A DNA stretch of 64,000 bases. Source: Grifola frondosa (lineage: Eukaryota; Basidiomycota; Agaricomycetes; Polyporales; Grifolaceae). Made by a program: the position numbers and the translations under genes. The first letter of the stretch is position 1; the number at the start of each line of letters is the position of its first letter. The stretch covers positions 62,001-126,000 of the forward strand of contig LUGG01000020.1 in NCBI GenBank assembly GCA_001683735.1. The letters run 5' to 3'. The notes beneath the pieces were generated by a model. That model saw nothing but the letters and a program-made list of their open reading frames with translations, was not told the DNA's origin and made no database searches. Positions 1-56,761 of the stretch are shown piece after piece.

Positions 1-904
1 TGAACACATTTGCTATCTGTGGGATCTCGTCTTGCAATACAAAGGTCATGCAGGCTTGGAATTCTGCTGGAGAGTTTGTGAATCCCATTGGCATTGATGT
101 GATTCGCAACAATCCCAGTGGTGAGAGAAATGCTGTCATATCTCTGCTTGTTACATCAACTTTTCTGGCATCGAAGGCCCAGAACAAGTCAAACACGGAG
201 TAGCACTGTCTTCCTGCAAATGGTTCTACGAATGCATCCAGAATCGGGGGTACTCCTGCATCTCGAATTGTAATGGCATTAAGTGGTTGAAGATCATGGA
301 CAATTCTTAAATTGCCATTTTTCTTTAGAACACAAAACCATTTTGATCTGTATGAGGACTGGCATCGCTCATATACTCCTGCTTCAATCTTCTCTCGTAG
401 TAGGTCGACCACCTTATCTCGGATACCTGGTGCTATGGGGATGTTTTTATCAACCCATGGGACATGCGGTATTACCGGAATTATATAAGGGGAAAAGTAA
501 TCCTCTCGGAATGTTCCTCGTTCAGTCTCGTCAAAGGCAAGAACTCTTTCGTTCAACTGGATTATATGCCTGAATAACTTCTCTTCTTCAGGCCATAAAA
601 ATCCTGCCTCATTGATCTTCATCTCCTTCATTCGCTCCATGGTAAGCTTCCTCGTGGGTACAAAGTCAGGTGGGTTGAAGGGTAATTGGGATAACGAGTC
701 CAGTGGATTCTCTGGAAAACATCGTCTTACACGTGCATCCTCTGGAAAAACACCGGGAACTGGCTTCACCCTTCAGTCCACTGGCTTGTATACATATACT
801 GCGTCATTCGCACAATCCATAGATTGTGCTACCTCATGGTCTCCTAGGTAATTCTTTTGCTGCATTGTACTACTTGTGGAAAGTGGCATACTGATAAATG
901 GCAT
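1..904 (-). pseudogene. Ty3/gypsy pol fragment with reverse transcriptase N-terminal half (partial)
   Basis: The minus strand reads a long open frame that runs off the left edge. It contains the usual basidiomycete gypsy segment upstream of RT (KPVPGVFPEDARV, then FREDYFSPYIIPV) and the start of RT: SKWFCVLKKNG, IVHDLQPLNAITI, and VFDLFWAFDA, which carries the first catalytic Asp. It ends in MGFTNSPAEFQ and DEIPQIANVF; the YxDD box would lie outside the window. One in-frame TGA at 775-773 breaks the frame just before KPVPG. The first ATG of the open frame is at 904. RNase H and integrase are not visible. The family call is firm; whether this is the same family as the element at 21.8-26.5 kb cannot be tested because the two pieces do not overlap. 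Confidence 0.9.
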
Positions 905-1041
905 ATAGCTCATTTCAGTATTCTCGGCTCACTTCGTGGCTCTTGTTGAGTGCTGGTTGGTTGTGATAACAATAAAGGGCTCCAAAACTGGGGGTGGGAA
1001 TACACCAAACTACAATCCAGGTATGTCTAGTTTAACGTCAT

Positions 1042-1712
1042 TTACGGACGATTGTCCTGATTCGTTACTGTGGTCAAGTCCCTTTTTGTCCCTTTCCAAT
1101 CCCTAGTTTCTTGGCATAAGCTTTCTTTTGCATCGTCACTCGCAAGGACTCCTTGTCTCTTTCCCTCTGTTTCTGCGTCAGTTTTCTTCGGCCTCCTTCC
1201 TTCTTCTGCCATGCCCTCTTGCCCTTTGGACTCGGTCTTCAGGCTTAGGAGGTGGCGCATATAGCCCATCCTCCAGTTCCTCTCCCTTTTCCATGCTCAC
1301 ATCCACACTCATCTCGACCTCCTGTTCCTCGGCCTCTATGTCGTCATTCGTGAATGATTGGGAGTGGATGTTCATATAGGAAACAGTCCATGATTGCGTC
1401 TCTAAGATAAGTCTTGCTTATCCTCAATAGTATCGGTAATGAATATGGATCGGGTCGAAGGAACTTTGGTAGGGATAACTCTGTTTGGTAATTTGTCCGC
1501 TGCCTTTCCTTATTGGCCTTCTGCCGATTATGCTGACACTTCCGTCCTATATCCTCCATAGTCTGTTTCCTGGTGCGAAATTGGGAAGACTGTCTCTTCT
1601 CCCTATAGGCCTTTCGCTTCTCTTTCTTTTCCATTTCTTTCAGTAACTTGGCTACGTATCTCTTCCTGAACTCGGGGTCCTCCAATTTCTCTTCCAAAGA
1701 CAGTGATGTCAT
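1042..1712 (-). pseudogene. Frameshifted charged ORF upstream of the gypsy RT fragment
   Basis: Three minus-strand open stretches (1712-1344, 1375-1178, 1269-1042) join into one Lys/Glu/Arg-rich protein if two single-base shifts are allowed. The first stretch begins MTSLSLEEKLEDPEFRKR and is coiled-coil-like; the later parts are acidic (EAEEQEVEMSVDV) and then basic. It lies directly upstream of the RT fragment in the same orientation, so it may be part of the same retroelement, but I recognise no gag or protease motif. The function is unknown. Confidence 0.4.
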
Positions 1713-2040
1713 TTGAAAGGTCTTCTGAGGATATGCTCAGTTTCATGGCCTGTAGGTTCCTTTATATATGTCTCCTCTGGGCCTAGGCTCTGGAATGAGT
1801 CATCAAACTTGTTCCTGAAACTTCTAGGTCCTTCCAGCTGGTTCTGAGTGACCCAGGATTATAACTTGTCTTTCTTATGCACTGTTTACATTAGAAAGAT
1901 AGTCAAATCCTTGAATACTGACTTGTTTCCTCCATATACTGCATAACATCAGTTCTCAGAGTGTGCAATGAATTAATTTCAACATATTTTGACCTGCACA
2001 AGGTCAAGATGTCAAAAGTTTCCACTCCTGGTACTGTAAT
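1713..2040. other. Gene-free stretch, probable retroelement remainder
   Basis: No open frame of note. It is AT-richer than the DNA that follows. Composition changes sharply near 2040, where C/T-rich, intron-signal-rich DNA begins, so an insertion boundary may lie near there. Confidence 0.3.
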
Positions 2041-3330
2041 TATCAGTACCGTCCGCATTTGGGTCTTGGTTGCGCAAGTGACGCTCAGGCGTCAGTCACT
2101 GGCCGAGGTGACACCGAAGTCACCGTTGTGACTTGTGTCTCTGGAACCTTTGAGCGCGCGTTTCTCTTCGAGCGCGCGCTTCTGACTTCCGCGTCTGGTT
2201 TCGCCGTCAGGTGAATTCGACACGCGACGCGTCTCTCTATCGGTGCCTCCTCAGCGCTCGTTCCTTATTATCTCGTCTGGCTTCTCTTCCCTTCCTGCTG
2301 GCATCCTAGTCTCGTTCCTGGCCTGCCCTTGGGCGCCGGATGATTCCTTCGTGTATCTTCTCTGCTTCCCGTTATCCCCTCAGCCCTATCTCCGTGGTTC
2401 TTCCATGCGTTCCCTTCTCTGCCTGTCTCTCGCGCTCTCCACACTCTCTCGCTGGCACTGCTACAATGGCCGCTACGCGTTGGCTGACTCCTGCGCTGAT
2501 GCCAACACGTCTTACTGCATTCCTCGACGTTTTCCCAGCATGCTTGGACCATTCGCTTGACGGTCGTCAACGTTCGCGTGTCTCTCGCGCCACGCGTTGA
2601 TCGCCAACGCTGGTATATCAAACGGTGAGCGTACATGCTTTACTGTTCCAAAGGCGTTCTGAACGTAGCACATTCACTAGTGCTTCCTTCATTCCCAACG
2701 GTTTCTCCCTCACTTCCTTCACCATCTCTTCCTGCATCTCGAGTTTTCTTCAACGCGGCGTACACTCGCCATTCCTCCCTTGCTTCACGGCTGACTCGGA
2801 GCGCATGCTCTGGGTTCCAACTCGGGCTAGCTACTCTGGCCCACCAACTTCGCGGTCGGCACGGCGCGAACGAGCTGCTGCAGGAACGGGAACGCGTCCT
2901 TTCGCGTTCTACAGTGCGTCCCCTTGCAGGTTCCTCGGTACGTGCTTCTTCTTCGATACTCTGTGTGCATAGTATCAGCTGACTCCTGTCCTATCAGGCC
3001 GCGTCTACCTCAACAGATTCTTCTAGCGACAACACGGCGAAGCGTCGGGCGAGCTCGTCCATGGCTGGATTCGGTGACGGGCGCATCGGTGAGTTTGACT
3101 ATTCAAACTCTTCGCATGCATCTGACTTATATCCTTTTCCTCTCTCTCTAGATCCTCTCGGCGCATCCATACGAGACGCGTCCGCTCGTTCTCGACGGTC
3201 CATTTCTTTTTCGATCGGGATCGGTTGCTTCAGCACGGCGAGATCCTGAATTTCTTCTAGAAATTATCTCGCATTTTTCTCCCTCCGGCATAGTACGTAT
3301 CGTTACAGGCTGCATACTGATCCTTTACAG
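2041..3330 (+). other. C/T-rich DNA with plus-strand intron signals, no recognisable protein
   Basis: Plus-strand splice-like signals occur repeatedly: donors GTGAGC near 2622 and GTGAGT near 3089, and acceptors with branch points (CTGACTCCTGTCCTATCAG ending near 2998; a CTGAC followed by a long pyrimidine run ending in CTAG near 3151). Short open frames exist on both strands but none resembles a known protein. It may be a spliced untranslated transcript or a decayed gene. On the minus strand this is the downstream side of the gene that the foldback element seems to split. Confidence 0.35.
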
Positions 3331-3401
3331 ATCTTTTGTCATCTCTCGGGCTTCGGCTACTGGTCGCGCTTCGTGCGCGTTTTCGTCATCTCCCTGGCCT
3401 C

Positions 3402-3852
3402 TCAAGCTTGGCATCCTACCTCCCTGGATTCAACGAGCAGACCCGGATGGCCACCGTCTCCACCTCCGAGTGCCTTGAGCGCGAGCGTGATGGCTGCGAT
3501 CACGTCACTCAGGAAGGTGCAGTCCGTGTTGTTCCAGTCCTTGGCGGGCACGCTGAGGACGGAGTCAAGCGTTTGACGGTCGTTCCCTTCGAGAACCACC
3601 ACCCTGGTGACAGGTATGTCCCTGATCAGTCTCTCGGTTGACCGGTCCGCTGCTAATTTGACGAGCTTCCTCAGCCTGCGCCTCCTCCCAATAAAGGGTA
3701 CGTACGGCGCGGTTCCTTGTAGCTTCGGACTTCTCCAACGCGCGGAGTCTCTTGCGCGGGTCAGCAGGCTCTTCGGGTGCACGACGCGGGACTACGGCGG
3801 TCTCCATCGGGACGTCCTGGACGTAGGTGAGGCACTACTGGCTACCTGTATT
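3402..3852 (-). pseudogene. C-terminal half of a gene apparently split by the foldback element
   Basis: Minus-strand reading just outside the left end of the palindrome gives an open frame (METAVVPRRAPEEPADPRKR, rich in Arg/Glu) that passes, with one base shift, into a second frame (RDIPVTRVVVLEGNDRQTL and onward) ending at 3402. G+C and codon use match the open frame at 8762-9621 on the other side of the palindrome, in the same orientation. I infer that the two were one gene. No family is recognised. The alternative is two unrelated ORFs that happen to flank the element. Confidence 0.4.
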
Positions 3853-4030
3853 GTAATACAATATAGCATCAACCTGCTACAACCGTTGTGAGTTAGCTGG
3901 TGGGGTTGTCAAAAATGCCGTAGTACAATACTGGGCAGATTGTAATATATATTGTATTACAATAGGAGCATTGTAATACAGCTAGGCCGCATTTTTTTAC
4001 AATTAGGGCTGCTTGTAATATTTCTATAGT

Positions 4031-5424
4031 ACAATCTGACCTGATTGTAATACTAGATAATACAATCAGGCCAGGTTGTAATTTTCGATAAAACAATCTG
4101 GTCAGATTGTAATATTCAATAGTACAATCTGACCTGGTTGTAATACCAGATAATACAATCAGGCCAGGTTGTAATTTTCGATAAAACAATCTGGTCAGAT
4201 TGTAATATTCAATAGTACAATCTGACCTGATTGTAATACTAGATAATACAATCAGGCCAGGTTGTAATTTTTCGATAAAACAATCTGGTCAGATTGTAAT
4301 ATTCAGTAGTACAATCTGACCTGGTCGTAATTTTTGATAAAACAATCTGGTCAGATTGTAATATTCAATAGTACAATCAGGCCAAATTGTAATACTAGAT
4401 AAAACAACCTGGTCAAATTGTAATATTCAATAGTACAATCAGGTCAGATTGTAATATTCAATAGTACAATCAGGTCAGGTTGTAATACTAGATAAAACAA
4501 CCTGGTCAAATTGTAATATTCAATAGTACAATCAGGTCAGGTTGTAATACTGGATAATACAATCAGGCCAGGTTGTAATTTTCGATAAAACAATCAGGCC
4601 AGATTGTAATACTACTGGTAATACAATCTGACCTGATTGTAATACTAGATAATACAATCAGGTCAGATTGTAATTTTCGATAAAACAATCTGGTCAGATT
4701 GTAATATTGAATAGTACAATCAGGTCAGGTTGTAATACTAGATAATACAATCAGCCCAGATTGTAATACTACTGGTAATACAATCTGACCTGATTGTAAT
4801 TTTCAATAAAACAACCTGGTCAGATTGTAATATTCAGTAGTACAATCTGACCTGGTTGTAATACTAGATAATACAATCAGGTCAGATTGTAATTTTTGAT
4901 AATACAATCAGGCCAGATTGTAATACTACTGGTAATACAATCTGACCTGATTGTAATACTAGATAAAACAACCTGGTCAGATTGTAATATTCAGTAGTAC
5001 AATCTGACCTGATTGTAATACTAGATAATACAATCAGGTCAGATTGTAATTTTCGATAAAACAATCTGGTCAGATTGTAATATTGAATAGTACAATCAGG
5101 TCAGGTTGTAATACTAGATAATACAATCAGCCCAGATTGTAATACTACTGGTAATACAATCTGACCTGATTGTAATTTTCAATAAAACAACCTGGTCAGA
5201 TTGTAATATTCAGTAGTACAATCTGACCTGGTTGTAATACTAGATAATACAATCAGGTCAGATTGTAATTTTTGATAATACAATCAGGCCAGATTGTAAT
5301 TTTCGATAAAACAACCAGGTCAGATTGTAATACTACTGGTAATACAATCTGGCCTGATTGTAATATTCAGTAGTACAATCAGGTCAGGTTGTAATACTTC
5401 ATTATTACAATCCCACCTGCTTGT
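4031..5424. repeat. Left dyad array, 31-bp period, about 45 units
   Basis: An 18-bp near-palindrome alternates among forms such as ACAATCTGACCTGATTGT, ACAATCAGGCCAGGTTGT and ACAATCTGGTCAGATTGT (the last has 8-bp perfect arms around a 2-bp centre). Each is followed by a 13-bp AT-rich spacer of a few types (AATACTAGATAAT, AATTTTCGATAAA, AATATTCAATAGT). A 15-bp spacer variant (AATACTACTGGTAAT) gives some 33-bp steps. Units near the inner edge decay into ACAATCCCACCTGCTTGT. Confidence 0.93.
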
Positions 5425-6107
5425 ATTATCCATATCAGGATAATAGAGCTCGGGGTAAATACAGGATTTGCCACATGTTGCGGAAACATACCACATTTGG
5501 TATGTTTTAAACATAGCCACCATATGTTTTCTCCTCCACTACTCCCTCAATTCTGCACAGATATTCTTCATTTTAGGTTCGTCTGAAAGCGGTCGTCGAG
5601 TATAATTAGATTATGTACATATCTTTGTATGATATCAAAATAAAAACATACCATTCTGGGCAACCACCCCAGAATGTTCTGCTGCATTGCTCCTTCAAAT
5701 CTTCACCAAATTTCTTAATTCCTTCATCCCCTTGGTCGCCTTAGTGTCCCATTTTATGTTCTACATTTATTTTGGCAGAATATGTGACGGAAAACATACC
5801 ATTTCTGGTGGGTGCAGGCTCAGCCACACCAGAATTCCTCCCCTCCTCCTCCCTCAATACTTCATGGATTCTCTTTATTTAACATTCCCCGTAGTCCTAC
5901 ATATGTATACTTTAATTTTATGTATAGTAGACAGCCCCAAACAATGATAATATTTCGTCTCCTCCTGCTTTGCTGGCAGGGATCCATCCTAATTTGGGAC
6001 ATGAATATTGGACGGAATCTGAAACGAAGGGCACAATATAAAAGGTGTATTTTATCCTAATAAGGCGATGTTCACGCCAAAATATTCTGTCCGGTACTCG
6101 CTTCAGA
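5425..6107. repeat. Left inner inverted-repeat arm
   Basis: This segment is the reverse complement of 6823-7505, with only a few differences seen by eye (for example GGCACAATATAAAAGG against GGCACCATATAAAAGG, and one C in a C-run). The very high identity implies recent formation or ongoing correction between arms. Confidence 0.9.
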
Positions 6108-6822
6108 AAACACAAAACAGTATTCAGGGGTGGCTGAAACATTTCCTCCATCCTTCCTGAATGGGATTTGCCCCTAATTTCAAGCGGACTTTTGTGGTGT
6201 ATTCCTTTATATTGGGGTATCATTATGAGCTATACATTACGCTTATCAGAGACGATCCCATATGGTGAAATCCTTATCAGCTTCCCCTATAGATTATACA
6301 ATTGTCCTACTACACGAAATATAATAACAGATCGGATTGCAGGAGAGGATAAAGGAATATAACAGCTTCCAAACAAGTCCAAGATCATAAAAATTAATGA
6401 GGAATTGAGGGAGTAATTCAGGAATCAGTGTCCTTGCCCCTGATTCACTTGTACAGGTGACTTGAGCCCGGTACAGCAGTATTGAGGTTTCAGCCACAAT
6501 TAGGTATTTTCCTCATATCTCCCTCCCTTCCTCATGTATTCTTGTGATCTTTGTTGTATATTGTAGAGCTATATGAGTGTTATATATATGGAAGTGTTTG
6601 TGATTTTAAAGCTGCCAGAAAAATCCCTATCAGGGGGATATTACATTTCAGTGTTTGGGATTCAGCATTATCAAATATGCATCAAACAGTGAAATAGAAG
6701 GAGAATCTGAGAGATATATACAATGGTAGATGGATACAAACGAGACGATAAAAAATAGCAACTGGGTGGAAGGATATTGGGTGATCAGTGTGGCAACTGC
6801 CACCCAATGTTGTTGTGTGTGT
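6108..6822. other. Unique centre of the foldback element
   Basis: About 0.7 kb between the arms. It is AT-rich with only short open frames on either strand and no recognisable domain. It would be the loop if a transcript of the whole element folded back. Confidence 0.7.
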
Positions 6823-7505
6823 CCTGAAGCGAGTACCGGACGTAATATTTCGGCGTGAACATCGCCTTATTAGGATAAAATACACCTTTTATATGGTGCC
6901 CTTCGTTTCAGATTCCGTCCAATATTCATGTCCCAAATTAGGATGGATCCCTGCCAGCAAAGCAGGAGGAGACGAAATATTATCATTGTTTGGGGCTGTC
7001 TACTATACATAAAATTAAAGTATACATATGTAGGACTACGGGGAATGTTAAATAAAGAGAATCCATGAAGTATTGAGGGAGGAGGAGGGGGAGGAATTCT
7101 GGTGTGGCTGAGCCTGCACCCACCAGAAATGGTATGTTTTCCGTCACATATTCTGCCAAAATAAATGTAGAACATAAAATGGGACACTAAGGCGACCAAG
7201 GGATGAAGGAATTAAGAAATTTGGTGAAGATTTGAAGGAGCAATGCAGCAGAACATTCTGGGGTGGTTGCCCAGAATGGTATGTTTTTATTTTGATATCA
7301 TACAAAGATATGTACATAATCTAATTATACTCGACGACCGCTTTCAGACGAACCTAAAATGAAGAATATCTGTGCAGAATTGAGGGAGTAGTGGAGGAGA
7401 AAACATATGGTGGCTATGTTTAAAACATACCAAATGTGGTATGTTTCCGCAACATGTGGCAAATCCTGTATTTACCCCGAGCTCTATTATCCTGATATGG
7501 ATAAT
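6823..7505. repeat. Right inner inverted-repeat arm
   Basis: Mirror copy of 5425-6107. Paired positions near the centre add up to 12930 (for example CCGG at 6091-6094 with 6836-6839), while the outer ends add up to 12614; the difference reflects the unequal array lengths. Confidence 0.9.
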
Positions 7506-8615
7506 ACAAGCAGGTGGGATTGTAATAATGAAGTATTACAACCTGACCTGATTGTACTACTGAATATTACAATCAGGCCAGATTGTATTACCAGTAGTAT
7601 TACAATCTGACCTGGTTGTTTTATCGAAAATTACAATCTGGCCTGATTGTATTATCAAAAATTACAATCTGACCTGATTGTATTATCTAGTATTACAACC
7701 AGGTCAGATTGTACTACTGAATATTACAATCTGACCAGGTTGTTTTATTGAAAATTACAATCAGGTCAGATTGTATTACCAGTAGTATTACAATCTGGGC
7801 TGATTGTATTATCTAGTATTACAACCTGACCTGATTGTACTATTCAATATTACAATCTGACCAGATTGTTTTATCGAAAATTACAATCTGACCTGATTGT
7901 ATTATCTAGTATTACAACCAGGTCAGATTGTACTACTGAATATTACAATCTGACCAGGTTGTTTTATCTAGTATTACAATCAGGTCAGATTGTATTACCA
8001 GTAGTATTACAATCTGGCCTGATTGTTTTATCGAAAATTACAACCTGGTCTGATTGTATTATCCAGTATTACAACCTGACCTGATTGTACTATTGAATAT
8101 TACAATTTGACCAGGTTGTTTTATCTAGTATTACAACCTGGCCTGATTGTATTATCCAGTATTACAACCTGACCTGATTGTACTATTGAATATTACAATC
8201 TGACCTGATTGTACTATTGAATATTACAATTTGACCAGGTTGTTTTATCTAGTATTACAATTTGGCCTGATTGTACTATTGAATATTACAATCTGACCAG
8301 ATTGTTTTATCAAAAATTACGACCAGGTCAGATTGTACTACTGAATATTACAATCTGACCAGATTGTTTTATCGAAAATTACAACCTGGCCTGGTTGTTT
8401 TATTGAATATTACAACCAGGTCAGATTGTACTACTGAATATTACAATCTGACCAGATTGTTTTATCGAAAATTACAACCTGGCCTGATTGTATTATCTGG
8501 TATTACAACCAGGTCAGATTGTACTATTGAATATTACAATCTGACCAGATTGTTTTATCTAGTATTACAACCTGGCCTGATTGTATTATCTAGTATTACA
8601 ATCAGGTCAAATTGT
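7506..8615. repeat. Right dyad array, 31-bp period, about 36 units
   Basis: Same 18-bp dyads and 13-bp spacers as the left array, in inverted order. It is roughly 280 bp shorter than the left array, which is about nine units. The outer 8616-8761 is the terminal segment that mirrors 3853-4030. Confidence 0.93.
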
Positions 8616-8761
8616 AAAAAAATGTGGCCTAGCTGTATTACAATGCTCCTATTGTAATACAATATATATTACAATCTGCCCAGTATTGTACTACGGCATT
8701 TTTGACAACCTGACCAGCTAACTCACAACGGTTGTAGCAGGTTGATGCTATATTGTATTAC

Positions 8762-9621
8762 CAAAATGGTGACCACAGCTGGGTGAGGGAGCTCGAGTCG
8801 TCCGAGGTCGCGCGGTCGAACACGGCGCGTCGGTCGCGCAGCCGTTCGGTAAGTGCGCACCAACCATTAACTTGCTCTTCTGTCATTCTAACCTCTCCTT
8901 CTTCCGTTTGTTCTTCAGCTTCGTGGGCTCCTTCTTCCCCTACTTGGACATAGTCTTCCATTGCCTCATCTTTCCTCAACCTCTCGGCAGCGCGTCCAGC
9001 ATTCAAGGCGGCCACTGCGACGTCGACGAGGGACTGGAATCGTTCCTGCGCTGCTAATTCGTGTGCGGGCGTGGTCTTCAAAGGCGGCGTGCACGGAGGT
9101 GAGTACGAGGGCGAACGCGGGCTGTACGACGGCGTGCGTGGTGAAGGTGAACGGACCACATACGGAGGCGAATCGACCGCGCGGTCGATTGTTACTGAGC
9201 CGACAAGGGGTCCAGCTGTTGTCGTCCCTTCGTAGGATCCCTCCGGGTTGCTGGGTTCGATGGCGGGCCTGCATCGTGGGTTCCCGTCGTCCAAGCTGGT
9301 GTCGAAGATGATCACGGCGTCGCCGCGGACCGTGCTGAGGCTACTTCGGAGGCACGCGTCCTTCACGAGGAATGTCATTGTCGGATCCGGGCACTGCGAG
9401 CTTCTCGACCATGGCGCAATTCCTCTTGGGCAATGGTGCACTTCGGACGCCGTCAAGATCGGATCGTCCGAGGATGGAAGGGCAGGTAAGCCGTGAATCT
9501 TTTGATGGAACTGATATAGTCGATCCCAGCGCGGACTCGGCCGCGAAGCAGTCGACGCATTAGTGCGAAATAGGAAGGGGTTCGCCATTCGTAAGAGAAG
9601 GCGGGTCCGTCTTTCTTCCAT
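8762..9621 (-). pseudogene. N-terminal part of a gene apparently split by the foldback element
   Basis: A minus-strand open frame of about 285 codons starts at 9621 and runs without a stop into the right end of the palindrome, where it ends within a few codons. The protein is Pro/Ser-rich in the middle, with YSPRSPSYSPP resembling RNA polymerase II CTD heptads, then a Glu-rich segment (YVQVGEEGAHEAEEQTEEGE). I do not recognise a family. The same-strand frame at 3852-3402 is the likely continuation. ATG 9621 is the first in-frame Met; the true start may be upstream at 9653 in another frame or in an upstream exon. Confidence 0.45.
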
Positions 9622-10414
9622 GATTTCGTGCTCTTATTTATACCTTTTCCCAACAGGTCTCCTCTCGCCTTTGTTCAATATCCCTGTCCTCCTTGCTTGC
9701 CTCCAAACGACTCTGCACGGCGCGCGCATTCCCAACTGCCTCTCTTGTCGATCACTCTGCTCAAAATCTCCATTTCCTAGATCTCTCTATGAACTGTCCA
9801 GCTGACTGGCCTCGAATCCGCCGGTCTCCTACACTTCGCGGACGCATCTCTACGCCTCTGCCCGATCTGTCGTCGATCGGCGCTGCGGACTTCTCGACTC
9901 GGCCCCTGATTTCAGGTGAGCGCCACCTGACACTATCTTCCCCTGTTTCATATACTTGAATTTGTCCGGTATTTCGATCTCTTGCTGATCTCTCTTTCGC
10001 TAGATTCGTCCGCGCTTGATTCTTGCAGCACGCGCATCGCGCTTTGCAAATCTGGCGGTCCCGACGAGGCTTGCGGCCTCTTCCATTCTCGATATTTCAT
10101 ATCCTGGACAGGTCATGGGCACACTCGGCCTCTTCTATCTCAAATTCCTATTTCATCTAGCTGTTCTTCGGCCTTGGCATTGACTCCTTTCGTCTGCTCG
10201 AGGCCTCTTCCTTCCGCTACCAACGCGTCGCGTTTGTGGCGTCCTCGCGCTGCCTCCTCAGTATGTCTCCTAGTTCCCTGTCTTCCAGACTCTCTCCGCT
10301 AACTCTGGACTTGGCACAGGTCGTCTGACCTTCTCCCATGACCTCCCTTCCTATGACTCGCACTGAGTCCCTGTGACTCGTGCTGAATCATCCTAACTCG
10401 AACATTCCTTCGAG

Positions 10415-55962: not shown

Positions 55963-56292
55963 CTGGGTAACCCGGTGGAATGTATGGAATTGAAGACAAA
56001 GAAGTCGATTTGGAGCAGTGTATCTAGGACTTGCATAGCATCTTGCCACAGACTAATCACAGAAATGTTTCCTCGTTCGAGGAAGGTATTCTGGATAGTG
56101 TCGACTTGTCTTGACTAGCATTCTTGACTTGTACCCAGTTTCGAAATACATATTTTCCTGCAGAATCGCGTTTAGCCGGTGGTTTGACCTGTCCACAGGT
56201 CTGCTGCAAGGCTGCAAATGATTGGCATGATCAATGAAATTTGAAAGTTGGAGAACGCGCAAGTATTACAAAAATGTTGGATTATTCCCAAA

Positions 56293-56373
56293 TGGCCAAC
56301 GCCGGGGTCGAACCGACGACCTTGGCGTAACGGTATATTAGCACCACGCTCTAACCAACTGAGCTAGTCGGCC
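56293..56373 (-). tRNA. tRNA-Ile (AAU) with a short intron
   Basis: The minus strand folds as a full cloverleaf: acceptor GGCCGAC/GTTGGCC, D arm GCTC..GAGC, anticodon stem TGGTG/CGCCA, T arm GTCGG TTCGACC CCGGC, discriminator A. The anticodon loop is CTAATA...A with anticodon AAT. Seven extra bases (TACCGTT) just 3' of the anticodon fit a tiny intron at the canonical 37/38 position. Mature length would be 74 nt before CCA addition. Confidence 0.92.
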
Positions 56374-56761
56374 ACATTATTGTGATGTCATAGTCAACTA
56401 ATGATCTTGCAATGGGCAATACAAAGTGACCACCAGGGCTCGTTTCTGATCGTAGCGCGAATTGTATTAAACCACCACATGCACGCCGGGCTACTCAACC
56501 ACGACCATCAAATATCCGCGAACTCAACACAGTCGTCAACTTCAGGGGGAATGAAATAACGGTAAGGCGAGAAGTCTGCTGTGCTTGCGCAACCTAACCG
56601 ACATATTTATCACTCTCCAGTAGCAGACATTCCACACAAATTATGGTGATTGTTGATGATGTTTTCAAACTTTTGGGTTCGATAATCAGACGTCATGATT
56701 AATGAGTACACTAGTAGTGACAATACTCGTACACTAGATTCACCGAGACAATAAAATGGCA

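Follow-up and report, generated by a model that had tools for sequence, protein, structure and literature searches.

A foldback-armed transposon of probable Kyakuja type, with gene-bearing KDZ relatives, in the basidiomycete Grifola frondosa

The FB elements of Drosophila are built of inverted arms of tandem repeats around a short middle and are flanked by 9-bp duplications. In a 64,000-nt window of the Grifola frondosa genome (C18:62001-126000 of a 39.06-Mb assembly in 64 contigs; element coordinates below are positions in this window), we analyzed a 4949-bp palindromic element (3833-8781) that has arms and a middle of this kind but lies between two copies of a 7-bp target duplication, ggtgagg. 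Galileo, a member of the P superfamily in Drosophila, shares with it inverted arms that are long, internally repetitive and unequal in length among copies, target duplications of 7 bp, duplications exchanged between copies, middle segments in opposite orientations and arms that are longest in copies without a transposase gene, according to the sections of PMC2775673 and PMC3573991 cited here. It differs in its transposase superfamily, in its host kingdom, in a repeat unit of about 210 bp in the D. mojavensis subfamily F as opposed to 31 bp in the Grifola element, and in its target consensus GTAGTAC, which we could not see by eye among the target duplications of the Grifola copies. Tm1 of root-knot nematodes, as described in sections of PMC3169594, also has arms with variable numbers of short tandem repeats, short asymmetric motifs at the termini that lie outside the inverted repeat, and both transposase-bearing and gene-less groups, but is Mutator-related by the title of that report and has 9-bp duplications, 7-bp terminal motifs and 13-15-bp units. 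Among KDZ transposons, the two Laccaria families of Kyakuja described by Kojima 2025 have 7-bp duplications, 5'-CA..TG-3' termini and, in the account given there, no terminal inverted repeats, and Kyakuja is reported in Polyporales, the order to which Grifola belongs, among other orders (PMC12730594); Zisupton and a Dileera family are described with 8-bp duplications. The Cryptococcus elements KDZ1-KDZ3 likewise combine a KDZ transposase with a basidiomycete host and a length of ~9-11 kb, but have inverted ends of 139-241 bp, a CxC1 domain and 4-8-bp duplications, and are not called foldback in the main text of the report (PMC12810828). A limited literature search that excluded Repbase yielded no report of a foldback layout on a KDZ transposon, nor of a foldback transposon in Basidiomycota.

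The shared ends, the 7-bp duplications and the existence of 14-kb relatives with a predicted KDZ gene lead us to assign the Grifola element, with high confidence for a classification made from sequence, to a Kyakuja-type KDZ family, in which it would be a non-autonomous, foldback-armed DNA transposon. An earlier note on this DNA had described outer inverted ends, subterminal arrays, nearly identical inner arms and a unique center, and this anatomy was confirmed throughout. The left and right outer inverted ends (3853-4020 on the plus strand and 8594-8761 on the minus strand) are 95.8% identical over 168 bp. They are followed inward by arrays of 31-bp units with the core ACAA-N10-TTGT, the left one with ~44 units (4013-5396, plus strand; 44.3 copies) and the right one with ~35 (7518-8616, minus strand; 34.7 copies from 7534, also called as period 93 from 7518), and then by inner arms without the 31-bp array (5411-6141, plus strand, and 6799-7519, minus strand) that are 98.1% identical in inverted orientation. 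Between these lies a unique center of ~0.65 kb (6142-6788, plus strand), which occurs in both orientations among the copies. Without gaps, the longest inverted pair reaches 955 nt (98%), and alignment of the two halves of the element pairs 2137 of 2474 bases at 96.8%. The center had also been described as lacking a transposase. The inner part (5411-7518) is overlapped by 31 stop-to-stop frames with a minimum length of 45 codons, and the five of these that were scanned against Pfam gave no match at E 0.1.

The ends proposed earlier, 3853 and 8761, hold as the limits of the inverted part, but the transposon reaches 20 bp further on each side, to 3833 and 8781. The left terminal 20 bp, CACTACTGGCTACCTGTATT (3833-3852, plus strand), has no inverted counterpart in the right terminal 20 bp, CAAAATGGTGACCACAGCTG (8762-8781, minus strand), the two matching at 10 of 20 positions, and inverted similarity then runs at 94% from position 21 to 198. 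The identical copies of ggtgagg adjoin these termini directly (3826-3832 and 8782-8788).

The terminal 178 bp of the window element was found at 40 scored places of 66 candidates, mostly as inverted pairs, and alignment of the flanks revealed that nearly all copies share the further 20 bp on each side, with the same difference between left and right; the right 20 bp has one or two base differences in the copies L022, L031 and L040 and is absent from L037. With no mismatch allowed, the 27-bp left end (the 20 bp and the next 7) occurs at 23 places in the 39-Mb genome, whereas its reversed control occurs at none. The 27-bp right end gave 31 places with up to three mismatches, 21 of them of this family (exact in 20 cases, with a single mismatch in L022), eight with the variant GTAATACC and two more divergent. 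Of the 23 copies with the left end, 19 are of the long foldback kind and measure 4.1-6.6 kb. Two are short, at 1.78 kb (L036) and 0.95 kb (L046), and the remaining two reach 14.1 and 14.2 kb. One further locus (C3:2309572) has the right end only. Exact 7-bp duplications flank 17 of the 23 copies (13 identified by script, the two 14-kb copies, and L031 and L040). The search for other copies of the ends that the earlier note had proposed thus returned 23 other places carrying one or both of them, and the palindrome is a real transposon, among about two dozen copies. The same counts, with copies at different sites and exact duplications around most of them, do not agree with a single-locus form of another possibility raised there, a centromere- or silencing-related structure.

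These copies also bear on whether the palindrome might have been produced by the assembler, with one arm duplicated in inverted orientation. Long similar arms can be mishandled in assembly, and in L045, a copy from a sister family, the arms are 99.9% identical and both ends are of the right type. However, both inner arms are present in all 19 long copies, the window element has two different 20-bp ends, its arms differ in unit number (45 versus 35) and its inner arms differ by about 2%, and we consider an artefact very unlikely given the copy number and the exact duplications. Two copies have irregular surroundings. L037 (C12:1488167-1495634) has ~30 bp beginning GACTGGAGGGATTAGG on both sides of the element (around 1470-1500 and 5988-6020), longer than a target duplication; they may have been left by repair when an excision failed. 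L035 (C2:3398926-3403452) is without matching duplications, and a fragment of a center lies 2.5 kb away (C2:3396143-3396473), a state that suggests a rearrangement between neighbors.

Both 14-kb copies are on C7 (at 86242-100381 and 115027-129245) and have the same 20-bp ends as the window element, exact 7-bp duplications and arrays of the same spacing. Their best alignment with each other spans 13,998 columns at 99.3% identity and contains 36 mismatches and 58 gap openings. One frame of a C7 copy matches the KDZ transposase family (PF18758, E 4.6e-33), and KDZ matches are present at both loci. When one frame of the KDZ gene, which probably includes an intron, was used as a query, the best of 38 protein matches was P0001, an annotated protein of Grifola frondosa (88% identical across 82% of the query length), which matches the full KDZ profile (E 1.9e-60) and CxC2 (E 3.4e-16). 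Of the six frames tried from a 14-kb copy, five gave no Pfam match, and a search with a 140-aa frame from its far side returned no homologue at E 0.001. Compared with the window copy, the outer 198 bp of the C7 copies are 97% (left) and 93% (right) identical, and identity falls to 77-79% in the next 300 bp; in two other foldback copies that were compared, the fall over this second interval is less even, with 95-97% for L027 and 81-91% for L033. A drop beyond the outer ~200 bp would be expected if the transposase needs those ~200 bp.

The comparison with Kyakuja rests on the termini CACTAC...CAGCTG, which fit 5'-CA..TG-3', on target duplications of 7 bp (exact in 17 of 23 copies) and on a predicted KDZ transposase in the gene-bearing copies on C7. 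Three observations speak against the assignment or complicate it. Kyakuja-1_LB and Kyakuja-2_LB are reported to be without terminal inverted repeats; in the Grifola element the outermost 20 bp are not inverted repeats either, but long inverted array arms begin 20 bp from its ends. Six of the 23 copies have no exact 7-bp duplication of their own: that of L023 is 6 bp long, that of L046 matches at six of seven positions, L025 and L026 have exchanged theirs, no duplication flanks L035, and the right terminus of L037 is missing. Finally, the inner arms and center have no match at E 0.001 in either 14-kb copy. A further difference concerns gene content, because the Kyakuja families described in PMC12730594 carry a TET/JBP gene, whereas the 14-kb copies have no TET/JBP match (PF12851 was not found on C7, although it matches at 22 places elsewhere in the genome) and the commonest form of the Grifola element is gene-less.

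The likeness to Galileo raises the question of whether a foldback element of the P superfamily or of the insect FB type could have reached a fungus. Repetitive inverted ends, 7-bp and exchanged duplications, and a middle that is reversed in two copies are all outward traits of Galileo in the sections cited above. Against such an origin stand the KDZ transposase of the 14-kb relatives, the ends CACTAC..CAGCTG and a GTAGTAC consensus that was not apparent by eye, and we consider it highly improbable; membership in the insect FB or P-type groups is ruled out by the transposase of the 14-kb relatives. The earlier reading of the palindrome as a non-autonomous FB-type foldback stands for its layout and its gene-less state, and the allusion made there to basidiomycetes agrees with the protein match to P0001, but kinship to insect FB lacks support, as ends, duplications and relatives indicate KDZ.

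Across the 39-Mb genome there are 128 KDZ matches (exons counted apart) and 22 TET/JBP matches, a number of these matches having internal stops, so that several KDZ families seem to coexist. A TET/JBP-bearing KDZ element lies beside the window (C18, ~43.2-55.7 kb) and has three copies (on C18, C38 and C6) that are 99-100% identical where compared. It shows only weak inverted stretches (70-85%) at mirrored positions, and in the 7.8 kb read of the C18 copy, whose ends were not located, none of 34 ACAA words has a TTGT 14 bp on.

That spacing is nearly invariant in the arrays of the foldback element. In the left array of the window copy, 43 of 45 ACAA words are followed by TTGT exactly 14 bp on, and 35 of 43 TTGT words by another at 31 bp; the right array gave 34 of 34 and 31 of 36, respectively. 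Controls of 200 shuffles in two-base blocks gave means below 0.1 (for the 14-bp pairs of the left array, 0.09 on average and never more than 2). The 14-bp spacing is also kept in the two arms of one 14-kb copy, c7a (76 of 87 and 86 of 95), and in L045 of the sister family, for one of its arms (30 of 35), with shuffle maxima of at most 2 in each case. The 31-bp step is seen in only about half of the words of c7a (44 of 96 and 45 of 92), where many units are 32 bp long. From these three copies, the constant feature is the 14-bp spacing, and the spacer letters and the number of units vary.

Given that 31 bp is about three turns of DNA, the sites would all face the same side of the helix. A function as secondary transposase sites has been proposed for tandem repeats in transposon ends and is stated for one Galileo subfamily in the sections of PMC3573991 cited here, and by analogy the array units most likely act as a series of binding sites, either for the transposase or for a partner protein. 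An alternative that we rate as possible but clearly less probable is that the arrays are a by-product of replication slippage, or that they have a role in chromatin or silencing, for instance by giving rise to double-stranded RNA. The free variation in unit number, from 15 to 88 per side across the 19 long copies (45 and 35 in the window copy), would suit slippage, and a 301-bp piece of array folded as single-stranded DNA does far better than its shuffles (z -13.9). What neither version leads one to expect is that ACAA and TTGT keep their distance while the letters change, as they do in the 300 bp next to the ends at 77-79% identity, and that a 14-kb copy and a sister-family copy obey the same rule.

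With binding sites of this kind, we can propose how the element may move and rearrange. The KDZ transposase made by the 14-kb relatives would recognize the asymmetric 20-bp termini together with the shared outer ~180 bp, cut the element out and insert it with a 7-bp duplication; such mobilization in trans is suggested by the ends held in common, by the duplications and by the predicted KDZ gene in the relatives. The arrays would offer their helix-phased palindromic cores as repeated sites for the transposase or its partner. The near-identical inverted arms also appear to recombine, flipping the center relative to the ends, and neighboring copies can invert the stretch of DNA that separates them. 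What is seen today is the result of recombination, and from it we infer the route. We put forward only tentatively the wider proposal that a Galileo-like lifestyle, with helix-phased ACAA-N10-TTGT transposase sites and with arms that repeatedly flip the center and invert host DNA between copies, arose independently on a KDZ transposase. A foldback layout with short asymmetric ends outside the arrays was already known on P-type (Galileo) and Mutator-type (Tm1) transposons, and its presence now on KDZ makes it look like a repeated evolutionary solution. In Grifola, gene-bearing and gene-less forms occur in one genome, and the spacing rule common to them predicts a binding site.

Relative to the ends, the center points one way in 12 of the 19 long copies and the other way in seven. 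On a tree of centers, calculated without support values, the seven reversed copies are scattered and require seven changes by Fitch count. The copies L030 and L031, separated by 0.9 kb and with matching inner arms that are 99.6-100% alike, have their centers in opposite orientations. Taken together, the scatter and this pair suggest that the arms have exchanged repeatedly. Misassembly of center orientation is possible in principle. We also considered that, instead of recombination within an element, different copies might have exchanged their parts, or that the two orientations might go back to an old split. We regard this as unlikely, although exchange between copies does occur, as the pair on C36 described below indicates; the scattered positions of the reversed copies and the difference between L030 and L031 speak against one old split, and less strongly against exchange between copies.

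The C36 pair, L025 and L026, lies in opposite orientation 3.05 kb apart, with the flanking heptamers CATTTTT/CTTCGGC and AAAAATG/GCCGAAG. The left duplications of the two copies are thus reverse complements of each other, and so are the right ones. Exchanged duplications of this type have served as the signature of inversions made by Galileo (PMC2775673, in the section cited), and insertion of a hybrid element is a possible alternative source of them on C36. Flipped centers and exchanged duplications make the chromosomal effect of such arms measurable in a cultivated mushroom.

Gene conversion that keeps the two inner arms of each copy alike is only partly supported. At just three of 21 loci (the 19 long copies and the loci L049 and L050) is the partner arm the closest relative of both arms; when arms were sorted by the orientation of the center, most were closest to the same-side arms of other copies. 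Several copies (e.g. L027, L039, L035, L037 and L040) do pair with their own partner arm on the tree.

Within the sister family, L045 (C13:6500-11300, at 254-4518) is a 4.27-kb palindrome with 1777-bp arms that are 99.9% identical, right-type ends on both sides and no clear 7-bp duplication. It resembles one copy of Tm1 in M. hapla whose two ends carry an identical motif and which lacks a duplication, a copy that was explained by a crossover between two elements (PMC3169594, in the section cited).

Because the inner arms and center are unmatched in the 14-kb copies, the foldback element is not a simple internal deletion of them, a derivation that is ruled out by the searches of both copies, and the inner part must have come from elsewhere. 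Sequences 75-89% alike to the inner arms and center are present in the three array-less loci that were read (L049-L051), together with a further, diverged inverted copy, and the center of L045 is 69-73% alike to that of the element over part of its length. The inner arms and center seem to be an older repeat that was taken up by the element. Decay of the methylation type in the centers of 14 copies is weak, at about twofold per base, with nine C>T/G>A changes over 14 CpG bases versus 79 over 233 other C/G bases.

At its insertion site, the window copy separates two parts of an open frame on the minus strand, a downstream part at 3568-3832 and an upstream part at 8789-9633, that are joined once the element and one duplication are removed. 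The reconstructed empty site has a 370-codon stop-to-stop frame across it, and the window copy may therefore break a gene; the 287-aa open reading frame at 8758-9621 has no Pfam match. We assessed a preference for genes at 15 sites, all those with exact duplications (17) except the two C7 copies. It was not supported: frames of at least 150 codons cross the empty site in nine of 15 cases versus a fraction of 0.56 for random nearby positions. Elsewhere in the window, the only Rfam match at the gathering score is a tRNA gene on the minus strand (56292-56374).

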